From assembly GCF_039822265.1 (NCBI RefSeq), contig NZ_JBAJEX010000006.1, positions 62,001 to 126,000 of the forward strand: a stretch of 64,000 nucleotides of DNA. The letters run 5' to 3'. The DNA is from Thiobacter sp. AK1. GTDB taxonomy: Bacteria; Pseudomonadota; Gammaproteobacteria; Burkholderiales; Thiobacteraceae. Position numbers and translations under genes: made by a program. A model generated the notes under the pieces. It worked only from the letters and a program-made list of their open reading frames with translations, was not told the origin of the DNA and ran no database searches. This document shows, piece after piece, positions 12,451 through 19,609 of this stretch; within the stretch, counting starts at the first letter, position 1; each line of letters begins with the position of its first letter.

Positions 12451-13167
12451 ATGACTCTGGCGAACCCACCTGCGCGGCGAGTGCGTGATCTGCCCTTGGC
12501 TGTGGCGCTCGGGCTGTCTGCCCTGCTCCATGCGGCGCTGCTTCTGGGGGTGCGCGTGGGTCAGGTCGAGCGCCTAGGCGCGGCGACCCAACGGTTGGAA
12601 GTGCATCTGGACCAGGTAAAGCCGCCTTTCAAGCCAGACACCCGCGCCGCACCCGGCATGGATGCGCCCCCGATCCGTGACGCAGGCAGTGAGGCCCAGG
12701 CGGCGCAGCCGTTGGCGTCGCCAGCGGAAGCACCACCCGCCGCTGCGCGTAAAGCGGCGGAAACCAGCGCGTCGCCCGCCGCCGCGGACCAAGACGGCGC
12801 GCTCCCACGTCCTGGCATGCCCGAGGCTGCTGCAGGTCGTAACACGGTTGATTTGCCCCTGCCGCCCGATCCCACCTATTACCCGGCGCGCCAGGTGGAC
12901 GAGCATCCGGTACTTCTCAGCGACACCAGGCCCGTCTATCCTGAGGAAGCTGCCAGCCACAACGTGCGCGGCGAGGTGATCGTGCTCATGTTGCTAAACG
13001 AGCATGGCCGCGCGGACGAGGTGAGCATCGTCGAGGCCCGGCCCCCGGGCCAGGGCTTCGAGGAAGCGGTGATTGCCTGGCTGCGGGATGCCCGCTTCAA
13101 ACCCGCCATGCGCCAGGGCCGAGCGGTGAAGGCGCGGGTGGTGTATCACGTGACTTTCGAGCCCTGA
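12451..13167 (+). CDS. TonB-like energy transducer / TonB C-terminal domain protein
   Basis: 238 aa from the ATG at 12451 (an in-frame TTG at 12436 is possible, but GGAAG sits just before the ATG). There is a single N-terminal membrane helix (LPLAVALGLSALLHAALLLGV, residues 15-35), a long Pro/Ala-rich periplasmic spacer (about 55-140) and a C-terminal TonB fold (TRPVYPEEAASHNVRGEVIVLMLLNEHGRADEV...FKPAMRQGRAVKARVVYHVTF). It would pass proton-motive-force energy from ExbBD to outer-membrane receptors. No exbBD or TonB receptor is nearby, so the partner is unknown. It lies next to the Fur-controlled operon at 14-17 kb but is oppositely oriented. Confidence 0.85.
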   Translation: MTLANPPARRVRDLPLAVALGLSALLHAALLLGVRVGQVERLGAATQRLEVHLDQVKPPFKPDTRAAPGMDAPPIRDAGSEAQAAQPLASPAEAPPAAARKAAETSASPAAADQDGALPRPGMPEAAAGRNTVDLPLPPDPTYYPARQVDEHPVLLSDTRPVYPEEAASHNVRGEVIVLMLLNEHGRADEVSIVEARPPGQGFEEAVIAWLRDARFKPAMRQGRAVKARVVYHVTFEP

Positions 13168-13190
13168 TTCAACCACGAGAGGAGACCGTC

Positions 13191-13757
13191 ATGAGCAGAC
13201 TCAACATCGCCTTTGGCTTTTTCTTCCTTGCCCTATCTGCCGCGCTGGGCCCTTATATGCTGCTCAAGCTGCACCCCACCGCCCAGCAAGCCCAGGAAGG
13301 TCGGGTCGCGACCACCGGCAAACTGGCCGAGGTGGCGGGCGCCAACTATGACGATCCCGAGACGCTTGCCCCCATCACCGCCGATAAGCTGGGGCACCTC
13401 ACCACCGATGCGGTGCTTGCCATCAATCGTGAAATCAACGCGCGTGCGCCCATCGACGCGGTGCGCTCCGGTCCCCATGTGCACGGCAACCTGGAAGCCT
13501 TGCTCAACATCGTGGTGGGTGTCGTGCTGATGTTCGTTTCCTGCAAGCGGGCATGGATGAAGCAGGTGATCGGCTGGCTGTTCATCCTAGGCACGCTGCT
13601 GCATTCCGGCATGCTCTACCTGGTGACGGTGTTCAACCAGGCGTGGGCCGGTCAGATCCTGGGCACCGGCCTTGGGCCGATCATGATCCTGCTGGGGCTT
13701 GTGCTCGCCGGCCTGGCCGTGGCCATCGGCTTCCGTGGCGAAGTCGTGCGGGAGTGA
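13191..13757 (+). CDS. Uncharacterised integral membrane protein, about 4 TM
   Basis: 188 aa behind GAGAGGAG at about 13178. Hydrophobic helices lie at about 5-25, 104-121, 128-150 and 160-182. Between helix 1 and 2 is a hydrophilic segment of about 75 residues (TGKLAEVAGANYDDPETLAPITADKL and on) that is predicted to face the periplasm. I do not recognise the family. It starts 24 bp after the TonB-like gene, so the two may be cotranscribed. No catalytic motif, Cys pair or heme-binding pattern stands out. Confidence 0.7.
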   Translation: MSRLNIAFGFFFLALSAALGPYMLLKLHPTAQQAQEGRVATTGKLAEVAGANYDDPETLAPITADKLGHLTTDAVLAINREINARAPIDAVRSGPHVHGNLEALLNIVVGVVLMFVSCKRAWMKQVIGWLFILGTLLHSGMLYLVTVFNQAWAGQILGTGLGPIMILLGLVLAGLAVAIGFRGEVVRE

Positions 13758-13881
13758 CGCGCCCAAGCCGAAGGCCGCGCAGTGTGTTGCACGCGCATCT
13801 AGCTGCTCGCCTGGCAAGCGCTCGGCGAGCGCTCGGGCCGCGCTCAAGCTTGCCTGCGCCCGCTTGAGCGGTTGCGATGAG

Positions 13882-14385
13882 TCAGGGCGTTTCGGCAGCA
13901 GCACGCGCGGATGCCGGCGGCGCGGCATTTGCCACGCGGGCAGCCGCCCGCGCGCGTCCCCGCTTCACGTGCAGGGTGAGCATAAGGGGGAGAGCCAGGC
14001 CGGCGATCCAGTGTAGAAGCGGTAACCACGCTTCATTCGCTTCGCTGCTGAAGTAATAGAGGGCATAGCCGGTTGCCGCGAGCCAAACAAGCCAAGCCTG
14101 CATCATCAATCCCGTGATGCGGTTGCGCTGCCGCTGCCACGCCCCACGCGCGTGCACCGGTAGCACCGATCCCATGACCACGAGTGTGGCGAAGGCGAAG
14201 CCCCCATGCAGGCGCAGCCACCACTTTTCCAGCGGATGCGGGGTGGGTCCGAACGGGCTCGGGACGGCCAGGAAATGGTGAAACAATAACCATAGCCCAC
14301 CCGATAGCCAGACGCCAAAGAAGACCAGGTTTAGCGCACGGCGGTGATTGCGGGGAAGGCGGATGGGGAGGGGTACGCTAGACAC
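13882..14385 (-). CDS. Small cytochrome b-like membrane protein, last gene of hemP-apbE operon
   Basis: 167 aa starting at GTG 14385, which overlaps the apbE stop codon. A longer in-frame reading to 14679 lies inside apbE and encodes low-complexity nonsense, so it is rejected. Four hydrophobic helices carry His residues in positions typical of b-type heme ligation: LLFHHFLAV, RLHGGFAFATLVV, WLPLLHWIAGL and MLTLHVKRGR. It resembles cytochrome b561/DUF4405-like membrane electron carriers. As the inner-membrane member of an operon with an FMN-binding protein and ApbE, it could hand quinol electrons to the periplasmic flavoprotein (inference). Confidence 0.7.
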   Translation of the reverse strand: MSSVPLPIRLPRNHRRALNLVFFGVWLSGGLWLLFHHFLAVPSPFGPTPHPLEKWWLRLHGGFAFATLVVMGSVLPVHARGAWQRQRNRITGLMMQAWLVWLAATGYALYYFSSEANEAWLPLLHWIAGLALPLMLTLHVKRGRARAAARVANAAPPASARAAAETP

Positions 14386-15271
14386 GGCAGGCCTCTTGAC
14401 AACCGAGTTCGTATAGCTGCCAGGCGCCGCTGTGGTCGTCTCGCTCCAGCAAGAGGGCACGCGCCTCAAAGCGGGGCAACAGCCTGCGCGCGGCCTCGCG
14501 GTCGGCGAGCACGATCTTGGTGAGGGCGTCGGCAGTGATGCAATCGGGTGCCAGCACGGTGACACTGGAACCGGGGGCCAGGGCCTGCCGGCGTAGGGGA
14601 TGGATGTGGGGCGTGACACACCGGCCATGCACGCGTTGCGCGGCGAAATAGCCTGCGGAGGTGGCGGCGGCACCCGCACGCAAGTCCGTCACATGCAGAA
14701 GTCGTGTGGGCGCCGCGGGATGGCGCACGTTCAGCGGCTGCCAATTGGGTCCGAATAGGCGCAGGTCGCCACCGGCATTCACGCGCGCACTACTTACCCC
14801 GTGTTCCCGTAGCACATCCAGCGCCCGGTCCACCGCGAAGCCTTTGGCGATGCCGCCCAGGTCGATGCGCACGCGCCGGGCGAGCCGCACCCGATGTGCC
14901 GAGAGTAATTCCACATGTCGCCAGTCCCCTTGGCCGGAGGCGCGGGGAAAGTCGGCATGCCGCGGCAGATATCCCAGCCGCGCCAAAAGGGGTGCGACCG
15001 TGATGTCGAACAGTCCGCCGCTTTGCGCCGAGAATTCCCGTGCTGCCGCCAGCACCTGCCAGGTCCAGGGGTGGACCGTCACCGGCGCGAGGGCCGCTTC
15101 CCGGTTGATGCGTGAGACATCGGAGTCCGGATCGTGATAGCTCATCAGACGGTGCACCATGGCCACGGCCTCGAAGGCCTGGTTCACCGCCTGCGCGACC
15201 GACTCGCCTGACGCGGCGATGTCCACCAGGGTGCCCAGCCAGGGCTGGGCGCGGCGTATCCCTGCGCTCAT
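14378..15271 (-). CDS. apbE: FAD:protein FMN transferase (ApbE)
   Basis: 297 aa. ApbE-family motifs visible are PWLGTLVDI near the N-terminus, LMSYHDPDSDVSRINREA (about 42-60), SGGLFDITVAPL (about 84), RIDLGGIAKGFAVDRALD (about 135) and GDLRLFG (about 167); ATSAGYF and DALTKIVL are in the C-terminal half. The enzyme covalently attaches FMN to Thr in [DS]-G-[AS]-T sites of exported flavoproteins. The gene directly upstream, which overlaps it by ATGA, encodes a protein with exactly such a site, so the substrate is likely its neighbour. No obvious lipoprotein signal is seen. Confidence 0.92.
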   Translation of the reverse strand: MSAGIRRAQPWLGTLVDIAASGESVAQAVNQAFEAVAMVHRLMSYHDPDSDVSRINREAALAPVTVHPWTWQVLAAAREFSAQSGGLFDITVAPLLARLGYLPRHADFPRASGQGDWRHVELLSAHRVRLARRVRIDLGGIAKGFAVDRALDVLREHGVSSARVNAGGDLRLFGPNWQPLNVRHPAAPTRLLHVTDLRAGAAATSAGYFAAQRVHGRCVTPHIHPLRRQALAPGSSVTVLAPDCITADALTKIVLADREAARRLLPRFEARALLLERDDHSGAWQLYELGCQEACRV

Positions 15272-15804
15272 TTCAACGCCACCTCGTAGGTGGCCAGCAG
15301 ACGCCGCACCCCTTCCGCCATGTGCTTGCAGGACAGGGTGGCGCCGCTGATGTTCTGTATGTCCTTATCCAGTTCCAGCGGCGCCCCGGCACGTTTGCCG
15401 ATGAACTGCGCGCGCCAGGCAGCGTTGCGGACCTGGGCGCCGTGGGTTTCGCGGTAGTCCATGATCTCGATGCCGCGCACAGCGCCCGTGGCATCGAGGG
15501 CGAGGGCATAGGTGATGAACTCGTGCTTGCCATACACCTCGTCCACCAGCAGCCAGCCGGCGAGCTTGCCGCCGGCTTCCGCCCGCCAGGCATGGAGCTC
15601 GGGGCTGCGCACGCGCACCTTGGACGCCTTCTCGATGGCCTCCCGCTGCTCGGCGCTCAGCAGCAGCTTGGCGTCCCGGAAGCCGCTTGCCTCGGGAAAC
15701 AACGCGTGCTGCGCCTGTTCCAGCGTGAGATATTGCACCGCGTGGGCGGGCAGCGCGGCCGCGGCGAGGGCGGGGACGGACAGCCAAAGCAGATCATGAC
15801 GCAT
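15268..15804 (-). CDS. Periplasmic FMN-binding-domain protein (covalent flavin acceptor)
   Basis: 178 aa from the ATG at 15804. A Sec signal peptide (LLWLSVPALAAAALPAHA, about 1-22) is followed by an FMN_bind domain, with a central DEVYGKHEFITYALALDATGAVRGIEIMDYRETHG and the flavinylation motif NISGATLSC, where T156 of SGAT is the expected FMN attachment site. RnfG, NqrC and NosR share this domain. Downstream apbE overlaps it, and a cytochrome b-like protein follows. It is probably a periplasmic one- or two-electron carrier. No Rnf or Nqr genes are near, so a separate electron route is indicated. Confidence 0.87.
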   Translation of the reverse strand: MRHDLLWLSVPALAAAALPAHAVQYLTLEQAQHALFPEASGFRDAKLLLSAEQREAIEKASKVRVRSPELHAWRAEAGGKLAGWLLVDEVYGKHEFITYALALDATGAVRGIEIMDYRETHGAQVRNAAWRAQFIGKRAGAPLELDKDIQNISGATLSCKHMAEGVRRLLATYEVALK

Positions 15805-15812
15805 GGTGAGCC

Positions 15813-16679
15813 TCAGAAGTTGTAACCGAGTTTGAGGCGGATTTCCTGTTTCTCGTGATCCGCCAGATGCAACCCCGTGTGCATGTCCTGCTCGTCGGAG
15901 CCGGCGAGCTGTCGGACGTAGGTGAGCGTTGCCCACCATTGTTTCGCGCCATAGTGCAAGCTGGGCCCAGCGAACATGTCCCAGTGGTCGCGGCCCCAGG
16001 GGCCGCCCGGTGTCTTGCGATATTCCACGTCGGCCCAACCCTCGAAACCCACGAACCAGTTGGGCGCAAAGCGGTAGGACACCCCCGTGCGCAGGCGTGG
16101 CGCGATGGCATTCTCTCGCTCGCCGCCCGCCCGTGCCCGGTTGGTTTCGGCCTCCAGCTCCAGATTGGTGACCCATTGCAACTGGTCATCCAGGAAAGGC
16201 TTCTGGAAGATGAGCTTCCCTTCCAGCTCCCAGGCATCCACCTTCTCTCCGGTGACGGAGTCGATGCTGTCGTAGGTCACCTCGCCGTAAAGGGCGACGC
16301 CCAGCCCGGCCTTGTAGGGCGAGGCGAGCATTTTCTTCACCTCGGCGGAGGCGCCGCTCCAACGCGCCTGTTTCAACTCGCCGTCGATCTGCCCAGGTAC
16401 GGGGTTGCCGCTGTAATCGTGGCGGTAGCCATTGAGATAGACCGAGCCGGACAAAGTGTCGGTGAGGCCGTATTCATATTCGAGGCGCACATACTGGGCC
16501 TCGTAGTGTCCCTGGCGCTTCCCACGGTGGTCGGTGAGCCAGAGGTAGGCCTCGGCCGCACCCTGGGGCAAGGTTTCGGCACCCATGGTGTAGCCGAGCA
16601 GGTTCTCGTCTGCTTGGGCGGGCAGACTCACGGCGGCGGCCAGCAACAGGCCAGTAAGGTGGTGGCGGGTCAGTGACAT
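15813..16679 (-). CDS. Outer-membrane beta-barrel-like protein (DUF6662-like)
   Basis: 288 aa from the ATG at 16679, with AGAAAGGA just upstream; an in-frame extension to 16703 lacks a better site. The signal peptide (LTGLLLAAAVSLPAQA) is followed by a mature part starting DENLLGYTMGAETLPQGAAEAYLWLTD, and then alternating hydrophobic/aromatic strands ending in KLGYNF with the C-terminal Phe typical of outer-membrane barrels. I associate the ENLLGY...GAETLPQG start with the uncharacterised family DUF6662, from memory. As second gene of the hemP operon it is likely iron-regulated. Confidence 0.72.
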   Translation of the reverse strand: MSLTRHHLTGLLLAAAVSLPAQADENLLGYTMGAETLPQGAAEAYLWLTDHRGKRQGHYEAQYVRLEYEYGLTDTLSGSVYLNGYRHDYSGNPVPGQIDGELKQARWSGASAEVKKMLASPYKAGLGVALYGEVTYDSIDSVTGEKVDAWELEGKLIFQKPFLDDQLQWVTNLELEAETNRARAGGERENAIAPRLRTGVSYRFAPNWFVGFEGWADVEYRKTPGGPWGRDHWDMFAGPSLHYGAKQWWATLTYVRQLAGSDEQDMHTGLHLADHEKQEIRLKLGYNF

Positions 16680-16765
16680 GGCAGTTCCTTTCTGAGCAGT
16701 CAAAAAGTCTGGCTGGCTGGCTCAGGCGTCCCACGGACGCCGGAACTGGCTGGCTAAGTCAGTGA

Positions 16766-16945
16766 TTACTTCGTCAAAATCAGCTTGCCGGCGCGGGTGA
16801 TGCGCAGGCGGTATTCCTGGCCCTGATGCAGGATGCGCACCTCGTTTTCCTGGCGGAACAACCGTTCGCTGGGGATGGGACGCTGCCGATCCAGGACCAG
16901 GTAGCGGGAGTCTTTCGGGGCGGCTGTGGGGATTTCGGTCGTCAT
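16766..16945 (-). CDS. hemP: Hemin uptake protein HemP
   Basis: 59 aa, from the ATG at 16945 to a TAA at 16766-16768; too short to be picked up as a long ORF. The C-terminal half reads SERLFRQENEVRILHQGQEY then RLRITRAGKLILTK, the family signature of HemP (E-V-x-I-x-H-x-G-x-x-YRLR-x-T-R-x-GKLILTK). In other proteobacteria HemP is a small iron-induced factor that activates heme-uptake gene expression. Here it heads an operon without heme receptor genes. The Fur box overlapping its promoter starts 15 bp upstream of the start codon. An overlapping 77-aa reading in another frame is rejected. Confidence 0.9.
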   Translation of the reverse strand: MTTEIPTAAPKDSRYLVLDRQRPIPSERLFRQENEVRILHQGQEYRLRITRAGKLILTK

Positions 16946-16959
16946 GGCCTGTCAATGCA

Positions 16960-16978
16960 AATGCGAGTGATTCGCATT
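16960..16978. promoter_or_regulatory. Fur box upstream of hemP
   Basis: AATGCGA-N5-TCGCATT is a perfect 7-bp inverted repeat with a 5-bp centre, the form of Fur operators in many betaproteobacteria. It overlaps the -10 element of the hemP promoter and so should repress under iron sufficiency. Confidence 0.85.
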
Positions 16979-17004
16979 ATGAAAGACGCGCCGCCGGCCG
17001 TCAA
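16976..17004 (-). promoter_or_regulatory. Sigma-70 promoter of the hemP operon
   Basis: Minus strand: -35 TTGACG (17004-16999), 17-bp spacer, -10 CATAAT (16981-16976). The -10 overlaps the Fur box. Confidence 0.75.
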
Positions 17005-17339
17005 GGGGCGCGCTCCTGGGGGCGCTCGAGCCGCGATCTGGCCACCACCATGTCAGCCATCGCGGCTAAAGCCCCTCCCACAAGCCGCTGCCACGATTGC
17101 TCTCACGGGCCGCTGCCAGAAGCGCGCTCAAACCTCTCCCACTGGGTTAACCGAGCCAGGGGCTTATGCCATCGGGCGGTGCGGGCGTGCGGGGCCGGGA
17201 TCAAGGAAGCGGTGGCTGCGCGGGAAGGGGAAGTGGATTTCCCTTTTTGCGGAAGCGACTGGGATGCTCTATCCCCAGAGGGGAATCACCGGTGCGCCGG
17301 CGACGGGCCATGCCAAGGCGGTGGCGTACTCGGGCGATC
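17005..17339. repeat. Intergenic region with REP-like elements
   Basis: About 335 bp between the hemP promoter and trmL. A REP-like unit ATCGCGGCTAAAGCCCCTCC lies at 17059-17078, continuing into CACAAGC and a degenerate mirrored partner further on. The rest shows no convincing ORF. Confidence 0.6.
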
Positions 17340-17807
17340 TCAATCGGCGGCGCCGGCAAACCCGTTCTGGCGCCAGGCCTCATAGACGACGATGGCGGCA
17401 GCGTTGGCGAGGTTGAGACTGCGGGAGTGGGGCAGCATGGGCAGACGCAGGCGCCGCTCAGTTGGAAAACCCAATAGCACGTCCTCCGGTAGGCCGCGGG
17501 TTTCTGGACCCAGGACGAAGACGTCTCCCGGTCGGTAGTCCACCTGGTCGTAGCGCCGTCTGCCGCGGGTGGAAAGGGCAAACAGGCGGCTGCCCGCCAG
17601 CGCTTCCTGGCAGTGGCGCCAGTCCGGGTGCACGAGGAGGCGGGCGAACTCGTGATAATCGAGCCCAGCACGCCGCAGCTGTTTGTCGTCTAGCCGGAAG
17701 CCCAGGGGCTCAACCAGGTGCAAGGTGGTGCCGCTATTGGCGCACAGGCGGATGATATTGCCCGTATTGGGTGGGATCTCCGGCTGGAAGAGGACCAGGT
17801 GAAACAT
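17340..17807 (-). CDS. trmL: tRNA (cytidine(34)-2'-O)-methyltransferase
   Basis: 155 aa from the ATG at 17807, the length of TrmL/YibK. A longer reading to 17882 overlaps the promoter region. SPOUT-fold features are MFHLVLFQPEIPPNTGNIIRLCAN at the start, FVLGPETRGLPEDVL (knot loop, about 97) and the C-terminal RSLNLANAAAIVVYEAWRQ, the SAM-binding trefoil-knot signature. It methylates the wobble base of tRNA-Leu isoacceptors. It is divergent from mshE with a 95-bp gap. Confidence 0.93.
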   Translation of the reverse strand: MFHLVLFQPEIPPNTGNIIRLCANSGTTLHLVEPLGFRLDDKQLRRAGLDYHEFARLLVHPDWRHCQEALAGSRLFALSTRGRRRYDQVDYRPGDVFVLGPETRGLPEDVLLGFPTERRLRLPMLPHSRSLNLANAAAIVVYEAWRQNGFAGAAD

Positions 17808-17835
17808 TGCCTTGCGCCTGCCACTAAAAACAGTT

Positions 17836-17863
17836 AGTGTAGCCGAATCAACGATATGCTCAA
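17836..17863 (-). promoter_or_regulatory. Promoter of trmL
   Basis: Minus strand: -35 TTGAGC (17863-17858), 16-bp spacer, -10 TACACT (17841-17836). It is well placed 29 bp before the trmL start. Confidence 0.6.
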
Positions 17864-17902
17864 TAAATATGAGGTATGACATGAACTGCCGTCGGGGGCG
17901 CC

Positions 17903-19609
17903 GTGGCCAGACCTGAGAAAGTCCGCCTGGGGGAGATCCTGGTCAACCAGAAGCTCATCTCCCAAGAGCAGTTGGCCCTGGCGTTGGAAGAGCAGAAGCG
18001 TACCGGGCGTAAGCTGGGGCGAATTTTCGTCGAGCAAGGCTTCGTCACCGAGGAGCAGATTTCCGAGGCACTCGCCCGTCAGCTCAACATTCCCTACATC
18101 AATCTCAAGTTTTACCAACTGCGGCCCGAGGTGGTGCGGCTGCTGCCGGAGACCCAGGCGCGGCGCTTCCGCGCCATCGTCATGGAAGTGAAGGACAACA
18201 CCGCCCTGGTGGGCATGGCCGATCCCACAGACCTGTTCGCCTATGACGAGATCGCGCGCATCCTCAAGCGGGATCTGAGCCTGGCCGTGGTCAACGAAGG
18301 CCAGCTCATGGAGGCCATCGATCGCCTCTACCGGCGCACCGATGAAATCACCGACTTGGCCCATGAACTGGAGGTGGCGCTGGGTGATACCGCCGTGGAC
18401 TTCGGCCTGTTGGGCGCCACGCCCAGTCTGGAGGACGCGCCCATCGTGCGCCTGCTGCAGACGGTGTTCGAAGACGCCACCCAGGTGCGCGCCTCAGACA
18501 TCCACATCGAGCCCCAGGAGAAGACGCTGCGTATCCGTTTCCGCATCGACGGCGTGTTGCATTTGCAAACCGAGGTGGACCCGAAGATTGCCACCGCGCT
18601 GGCGTTGCGCCTCAAGCTCATGTCGGGTTTGGACATCGCGGAAAAACGGCTGCCCCAGGACGGCCGTTTCCACGTGCGGGTGAAGAACCGCACGGTGGAC
18701 GTGCGTATCTCCACGCTCCCCACCCAGTATGGGGAGTCCGTGGTGATGCGCCTACTCAACCAGGACGAAGGCGCGCCCCCTCTTGAGCAACTGGGCTTTC
18801 CGGCGACGATGCTGGGACGCTTCCGGGAAATCTTCCACCGCGCTCAGGGCATGGTGCTGGTGACGGGTCCCACCGGTTCCGGCAAGACGACCACGCTCTA
18901 TTCGGTGCTCGCCGAACTAAACGCCGTGGAGCGCAAGATCATCACCGTGGAAGACCCGGTGGAGTATCGGCTGCCCGGCATCAACCAGGTGCAGGTCAAC
19001 GAGAAGATCGATCTTACCTTCTCCCGCGTGCTGCGCACCGTCCTGCGCCAGGATCCGGACATCGTGCTGGTGGGCGAGATGCGCGATCAGGAAACGGCGC
19101 AGATGGGCATGCGTGCGGCCATGACCGGGCACATGGTGCTTTCCACCCTGCATACCAATGATGCTGTCTCGACCCCCATCCGCCTGCTGGATATGGGCGT
19201 GCCCCCATACATGGTGGCCATGTCCGTGCACGCCGTGCTTGCCCAGCGGCTGCTGCGGCTGGTGTGCGACAGCTGTATGGCCGCCTACATGCCGCTACCC
19301 CACGAGCTTGCCTGGCTGGAACTGGAGTTGGGCCCCGAGGCGGCGCAGCGACCTTGGGTGCAGGGGCGTGGCTGCAGCCATTGCAACGGCACCGGCTACC
19401 GCGGCCGCGTGGGCGTGTACGAAATGCTGGAAATGACGGCCCCCTTGGTGGAGGCGCTGAACCGTCAGGATACCCAAGCGTTCGTGCGCCTTGCGCGGCA
19501 ACAGCTGGCGGGTCGTACCTTGCGTCGGGCCGCGGTGGATTTGGCTGTCGCGGGCCGCACCAGCGTCGCCGAGGCCATGCGCGTGACCAGCGCGCTCGAA
19601 GACAATTGA
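17903..19609 (+). CDS. mshE: MSHA pilus extension ATPase MshE with c-di-GMP-binding type N-domain
   Basis: 568 aa from the GTG at 17903. The N-terminus has two tandem MshEN motifs (RLGEILVNQKLISQEQLALAL and KLGRIFVEQGFVTEEQISEAL), the c-di-GMP-binding module of this ATPase class. The GspE/PilB core follows: Walker A GPTGSGKTT at 322-330, the Asp box ITVEDPVEY, Walker B DPDIVLVGEMRD and the His box STLHTNDA. A zinc-binding tetracysteine is in CDSC ... CSHCNGTGYRGR. It powers pilus polymerisation from the cytoplasm. It is the first gene of the pilus locus, upstream of mshG. A retraction ATPase of the PilT type is not seen. Confidence 0.92.
   Translation: MARPEKVRLGEILVNQKLISQEQLALALEEQKRTGRKLGRIFVEQGFVTEEQISEALARQLNIPYINLKFYQLRPEVVRLLPETQARRFRAIVMEVKDNTALVGMADPTDLFAYDEIARILKRDLSLAVVNEGQLMEAIDRLYRRTDEITDLAHELEVALGDTAVDFGLLGATPSLEDAPIVRLLQTVFEDATQVRASDIHIEPQEKTLRIRFRIDGVLHLQTEVDPKIATALALRLKLMSGLDIAEKRLPQDGRFHVRVKNRTVDVRISTLPTQYGESVVMRLLNQDEGAPPLEQLGFPATMLGRFREIFHRAQGMVLVTGPTGSGKTTTLYSVLAELNAVERKIITVEDPVEYRLPGINQVQVNEKIDLTFSRVLRTVLRQDPDIVLVGEMRDQETAQMGMRAAMTGHMVLSTLHTNDAVSTPIRLLDMGVPPYMVAMSVHAVLAQRLLRLVCDSCMAAYMPLPHELAWLELELGPEAAQRPWVQGRGCSHCNGTGYRGRVGVYEMLEMTAPLVEALNRQDTQAFVRLARQQLAGRTLRRAAVDLAVAGRTSVAEAMRVTSALEDN

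Follow-up and report, generated by a model that had tools for sequence, protein, structure and literature searches.

Clusters of flavinylation genes have been linked to iron assimilation or reduction (PMC8238504), and in Caulobacter the DUF2271-DUF4198-ApbE genes are iron-responsive and Fur-regulated (PMC3751524). The PepSY-DUF2271-DUF4198-ApbE clusters (PMC8238504; Caulobacter CC_3059-3063, PMC3751524) combine ApbE with a flavinylated carrier and a heme-binding membrane protein, are Fur-regulated, and have been assigned to iron reduction and assimilation. A comparable set of five genes, in the order hemP, DUF6662, FMN_bind, apbE and cytb (a cytochrome b gene), lies on the minus strand (17004-13882) of a 64,000-nucleotide stretch of the 2.54-Mb genome of Thiobacter sp. 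AK1; the whole stretch is termed the window here. Quite probably this is a Fur-repressed operon for reductive iron uptake, in which a periplasmic ferric reductase feeds FeoB. Among the flavinylation-based iron-reduction systems (Meheust 2021), it is best read as a variant in which a b561/DUF4405-like cytochrome takes the place of PepSY or MsrQ.

The operon differs from the PepSY clusters in several respects. Its carrier is an FMN_bind protein and not DUF2271, its four-helix b561/DUF4405-like cytochrome has no PepSY domain, a DUF6662 barrel and hemP are added, and its ApbE lacks a signal peptide. HiuABC of Caulobacter and FoxB of Pseudomonas are also Fur-regulated inner-membrane di-heme reductases, proposed to release Fe(II) for FeoAB; there, however, the PepSY membrane protein itself is proposed to carry out the reduction, together with a TonB receptor, and the hiuABC operon has no FMN_bind or ApbE gene (PMC12424826). 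DUF4405 cytochromes and FezC (PMC11334425) are likewise apbE-linked membrane cytochromes with four conserved histidines, but descriptions of DUF4405 give it six helices and, in many cases, a flavodoxin-type substrate, whereas the cytochrome here is modelled with four helices and goes with an FMN_bind carrier and with linkage to Fur and Feo. RnfG and NqrC share with the operon the FMN_bind domain with its [ST]GA[ST] motif and a dependence on ApbE; the operon lacks Rnf and Nqr subunits, the Rnf genes of this genome being on another contig and its lipoprotein-type ApbE being encoded separately. The E. coli superoxide oxidase CybB and cytochrome b561/HyaC, four-helix di-heme membrane cytochromes, resemble the modelled fold of the window cytochrome, but their genetic partners differ and the window cytochrome does not match PF01292. 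None of the literature searched describes a cytochrome, carrier, barrel, hemP and Feo in this combination, although the supplementary cluster tables of PMC8238504 may list it without comment.

All five genes are on the minus strand. The first cistron is hemP (16766-16945; 59 amino acids; PF10636, E 3e-19), followed by the gene of a DUF6662 outer-membrane protein (15813-16679; PF20367, E 1e-51) and that of a 178-amino acid FMN_bind protein (15268-15804; PF04205, E 1e-9). The apbE flavin transferase gene (14378-15271; PF02424, E 2e-47) overlaps the FMN_bind stop codon by 4 bp (ATGA), and the cytochrome gene, which has a GTG start (13882-14385), overlaps apbE by 8 bp. The first four proteins are all well over the Pfam cut-offs; for the cytochrome, neither Pfam nor NCBIfam gave a significant match. 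The original prediction, made from the sequence letters, had listed hemP, an outer-membrane protein, a periplasmic FMN_bind protein with a flavinylation site, apbE and a four-helix, histidine-rich membrane protein, with overlaps at both of the last two junctions, and Pfam, the sequence itself and AlphaFold2 modelling agree with it on each.

At the DNA sequence level, the operon is preceded by a sigma-70-like promoter, TTGACG-17-CATAAT (17004-16976, minus strand), with a 10/12 match (0.5 expected in the scanned region). A 19-bp Fur box, AATGCGAGTGATTCGCATT (16960-16978), overlaps the -10 hexamer and is a perfect 7-bp dyad, as first described, or a 9-1-9 arrangement with one mismatch. With up to three mismatches allowed, it is the sole match in the window (0.05 expected), and in a scan of the 2.54-Mb genome the sole site with fewer than three mismatches is this one, upstream of hemP. 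A genome-wide pattern scan with a strict consensus gave no second good Fur box, and no convincing box was found in the TonB-receptor regions of the genome. One Fur homologue is encoded. In relatives, Fur-like sites lie 5' of hemP, usually over a TATAAT-like -10 sequence. Sites were scored against three general Fur-box consensus sequences of 19 nt, with a threshold of 15/19. Of 34 hemP-linked loci, 32 have a match of at least 15/19 in the region upstream of hemP, a count slightly inflated by a few contigs fetched twice (e.g. L034/L076, L035/L080, L036/L082, L038/L096 and L040/L091), as compared with 4.7% of 492 control upstream regions. Loci that lack hemP and begin with DUF6662 have such a site in 11 of 23 cases. 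The pattern by which a Fur regulon is recognized, a box over the promoter that is conserved in relatives, is therefore present, and on these sequence grounds the operon is probably repressed by Fur and switched on when iron is low.

Conservation was followed in 80 named loci found by a search with the cytochrome. An order-level search placed the nearest matches of the cytochrome in its own genus and family; Sulfuriferula, Thiobacillus, Sideroxydans, Gallionellales and Hydrogenophilales are among its closest named relatives, and the module extends to Beta-, Gamma- and Alphaproteobacteria and Acidobacteria. The original prediction proposed to look for the same five-gene order in other genomes, and the full set is found in this order in 21 of the 80 loci. 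FMN_bind, apbE and cytb occur together in 69, and hemP lies upstream in 25. An outer-membrane barrel is encoded with the module in 67: DUF6662 is present in 49 of the loci and a porin in 36, and 18 have both. As judged from gene order, the five-gene arrangement is far beyond chance.

Genes of iron metabolism, identified with Pfam on representatives, join the module in a number of relatives, and in the closest clade they extend the same-strand run. The feoB and feoA genes are inserted between hemP and DUF6662 in six loci (L078, L084, L085, L086, L088 and L089), and feoB follows cytb in nine others (L092, L093, L094, L098, L099, L100, L101, L105 and L138); in L099 and L100 the feoB match starts at the end of cytb. 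The bfd-bfr pair lies between hemP and the module in L072, L073, L074, L077 and L080, and exbB-exbD with a TonB receptor is found downstream or upstream of the module in L078, L084, L093 and L098. The FeoB proteins are of two types, only ∼31% identical and in different positions, so that linkage to feoB arose more than once. In total, feoB is within 5.5 kb on the same strand in 16 of the 80 loci, far above expectation from one or two feoB genes per genome; in L118 the distance is 4.9 kb, a large gene intervenes, and the proximity may be due to chance. Two loci, L106 and L133, have a member of the cytochrome family directly after exbB-exbD and no FMN_bind or apbE nearby; L133 also has tonB and a TonB receptor upstream.

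At the protein level, the FMN_bind product has the flavinylation motif SGAT (15337-15348, minus strand), with Thr156 as the acceptor residue. The motif [ST]GA[ST] is present in 66 of 68 relatives; all 68 have a hydrophobic Sec-type N-terminus, as does the window protein, and none has a twin-arginine motif. The ApbE motifs DLGGIAKG.AVD, NAGGD and ADALTK are intact. An exported [ST]GA[ST] protein, an adjoining ApbE and a transmembrane electron-transfer protein are among the marks of an ApbE flavinylation-based, extracytosolic electron transfer system, and these three are found here. The FMN_bind protein is thus predicted to be a periplasmic electron carrier with covalently bound flavin mononucleotide (FMN). 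Two relatives, L102 and L103, have two FMN_bind-like genes (183 amino acids), apparently in tandem between DUF6662 and apbE.

The AlphaFold2 model of the cytochrome has four helices (predicted local distance difference test score, pLDDT, 93.4). Four histidines, His60, His78, His125 and His139, are invariant in 63 of 63 sequences, a pattern consistent with a di-heme transmembrane wire. Loops 79-92 and after 139 are rich in arginine and lysine, and those at 39-52 and 112-122 are neutral or acidic. These charges would place both termini in the cytoplasm, and therefore His60 and His125 near the periplasmic face and His78 and His139 near the cytoplasmic face. Two bis-histidine hemes, one toward each side of the membrane, may be inferred from sequence and model. 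Foldseek gave no match to the cytochrome under 1e-3, and a sequence profile found no solved relative. Its VIA-align neighbours are mostly heme-binding four-helix proteins (the designed protein 4D2, E. coli superoxide oxidase, HyaC, cytochrome b6 and bc1), with Z scores of 10-12 (superoxide oxidase 10.2, HyaC 10.2), a range that helical bundles can reach without kinship; the match of modelled folds is supportive only. Family matches of the relatives point the same way: PF01292, the prokaryotic cytochrome b561 family, is matched by 29 of 63 (best 1.4e-8) and PF14358/DUF4405 weakly by 23 of 63 (best E 6e-5), the window protein matching neither. DUF4405 proteins are characterized by six transmembrane helices with four central histidines; four helices are modelled here, though the four histidines are invariant. 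The PepSY transmembrane domain (PF03929/PF16357) has no match in the window cytochrome and is outside the 25 commonest families for the 63 relatives. From sequence and model, the window protein is best read as a b561/DUF4405-like member of an unannotated cytochrome family.

These properties suggest a pathway. Under low iron, Fur would leave the promoter (16960-17004), and hemP, DUF6662, FMN_bind, apbE and cytb would be transcribed together. The cytochrome, with one heme held by His78/His139 near the cytoplasmic face and the other by His60/His125 near the periplasmic face, would pass electrons outward, most likely from quinol or else from a cytosolic reductant. ApbE of the operon would attach FMN covalently to Thr156 of the FMN_bind protein, which would take the electrons and pass them, in the periplasm, to ferric iron or a ferric chelate. 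The ferrous iron formed could then enter via FeoB, encoded elsewhere in this genome and within the same gene run in relatives; the Feo linkage in the latter points to the likely destination of the reduced iron. An iron starvation-induced route from a cytochrome b to covalent FMN for ferric reduction had been the core of the original prediction, and the conserved Fur-like boxes, the linkage to feoB/feoA, bfd/bfr and exbB/exbD/TonB-receptor genes, and the modelled four-histidine, di-heme-type fold argue for it. How Fe(III) is reduced ahead of uptake by FeoB is an open question in most bacteria, where the reductase is usually unknown. The module offers a compact ferric reductase candidate, which several lineages have in physical linkage with feoB. 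It also gives DUF6662 and the unannotated cytochrome family a likely setting.

Several observations weigh against a ferric reductase that feeds FeoB. The loci are phylogenetically related, and the counts do not represent independent events. In many distant relatives (Acidobacteria, Variovorax, Dyella) no iron gene adjoins the module. The single clear FeoB of this genome is outside the operon and unlinked to it, and no clear Fur box was found at the FeoB region. About half of the DUF6662 loci that lack hemP have no obvious Fur box. In addition, a signal peptide is lacking in the operon ApbE, whose presumed substrate is an exported protein. In eight porin-type loci the module occurs together with a MauG/di-heme-peroxidase-like gene and may there serve another acceptor.

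This last arrangement raises the question of whether the module reduces some other periplasmic or outer-membrane acceptor, such as peroxide, an organic compound or another metal, with Fur control serving to spare iron as flavin replaces heme or Fe-S carriers. An iron-sparing argument has been made for flavinylated systems (PMC8238504), and the loci with a MauG/di-heme-peroxidase-like gene and a porin have no iron gene. Nevertheless, feoB, bfd-bfr and exbBD-receptor genes join the run in the closest clade, and little iron would be saved if, as predicted, the membrane component holds two hemes of its own. Such a role is thus rather unlikely for the operon as a whole. In the eight loci themselves (L116, L119, L123, L145, L147, L148, L149 and L150), the MauG/di-heme-peroxidase-like gene precedes a porin-type module without DUF6662 or hemP, which suggests a second function or electron acceptor of the module.

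The DUF6662 protein is modelled by AlphaFold2 as a 12-stranded beta-barrel (pLDDT 87.6), the nearest folds being those of two outer-membrane channels, FapF and COG4313. No paper mentioning DUF6662 came up in a literature search. The probable role of the barrel is to let small ferric chelates through or to hold the flavoprotein in place at the outer membrane. An SGAS sequence in the window protein was considered as a second flavinylation site and rejected, as none of 46 relatives has the motif. Three hemP-linked relatives (L073, L076 and L079) have no detectable DUF6662, keep FMN_bind-apbE-cytb and have a porin after cytb, as if, by gene content, DUF6662 and porin were interchangeable barrels.

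The frequency of a DUF6662 or porin barrel with the module (67 of 80 loci) would also fit a trans-envelope conduit of barrel, flavoprotein and cytochrome, a flavin counterpart of the porin-cytochrome conduits that acts on extracellular ferric minerals or, in reverse, oxidizes Fe(II). The hosts do include Gallionellales and Sideroxydans, which are known iron oxidizers. However, repression by iron has the wrong sign for an Fe(II)-oxidizing energy pathway, a flavinylation motif is not conserved in DUF6662 (0 of 46 relatives), and a long conduit is unlikely with a single FMN on each carrier. A conduit is accordingly an improbable reading of the operon.

The role of HemP bears on a third possibility. 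In Burkholderia, HemP is Fur-regulated and, as cited in PMC7377471, has been reported to be a transcriptional activator; the same source attributes to Sato (2017) the activation of hemin uptake by hemP in Burkholderia multivorans. By analogy, HemP of the operon is probably a Fur-dependent regulatory or expression factor. That the operon acquires heme, with hemP marking a heme-uptake locus and the flavin chain reducing heme or stripping its iron, draws on the gene name and on this reported activator role, but it is very improbable, given that Burkholderia hemP also precedes the non-heme FtrABCD iron-uptake operon (PMC7377471), that the linked transporter in relatives is FeoB, and that neither the operon nor the recurrent neighbours examined include a heme receptor, HmuTUV or heme oxygenase gene.

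The original prediction had noted the absence of heme receptor and Rnf genes. This holds beside the operon, where Pfam detected no Rnf or Nqr subunit other than the FMN_bind type, but the genome as a whole has four TonB-dependent receptors elsewhere and, on contig C1, a complete rnfABCDGE cluster (L177 938-6126) with an endonuclease III-like gene after it. This genome therefore encodes a second FMN_bind protein, RnfG.

Exported proteins are flavinylated by ApbE in the periplasm, according to the accepted order of events. Returning to the proposed ferric reductase, its ApbE does not readily fit this order. The protein starts a few residues ahead of a conserved RARPLLGT-like motif and has neither the signal peptide nor the lipobox of a periplasmic (lipoprotein) ApbE. 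By hydropathy and start-codon analysis (SignalP was not used), an N-terminal hydrophobic segment is absent from the window ApbE and in 94 of 95 module loci, L144 being the sole one to have it. Because there is no signal-like segment, the operon ApbE is predicted to be cytosolic; its presumed substrate is nonetheless Sec-exported. Perhaps the FMN_bind protein is flavinylated in the cytosol before Sec export. Cytosolic ApbEs are known for a soluble fumarate reductase in Klebsiella (PMC12052999), and in a study cited in the same paper a Salmonella ApbE deprived of its signal did not complement. Alternatively, flavinylation may be helped by the genome's second ApbE, which has a lipobox-type N-terminus. 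The conserved absence of a signal peptide raises the question of where exported proteins receive their flavin, and attachment of FMN before export would reverse the accepted order. Tentatively, and with more doubt than for the uptake role, the operon may represent an unnamed class of Fur-controlled ferric reductases, in which a compact di-heme cytochrome would serve a covalent-FMN protein for FeoB, with cytosolic flavinylation by a signal-less ApbE before Sec export.

An Rfam search of 13000-18000 gave nothing credible, and no Rfam-modelled, Fur-linked small RNA was detected beside hemP. Two genes on the plus strand converge on the end of the operon: one encodes a TonB C-terminal domain (PF03544; 12436-13167) and the next a membrane protein just below the DUF423 cut-off (13191-13757). 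A TonB-type gene adjoins the module in the relatives L078, L081 and L086 as well.

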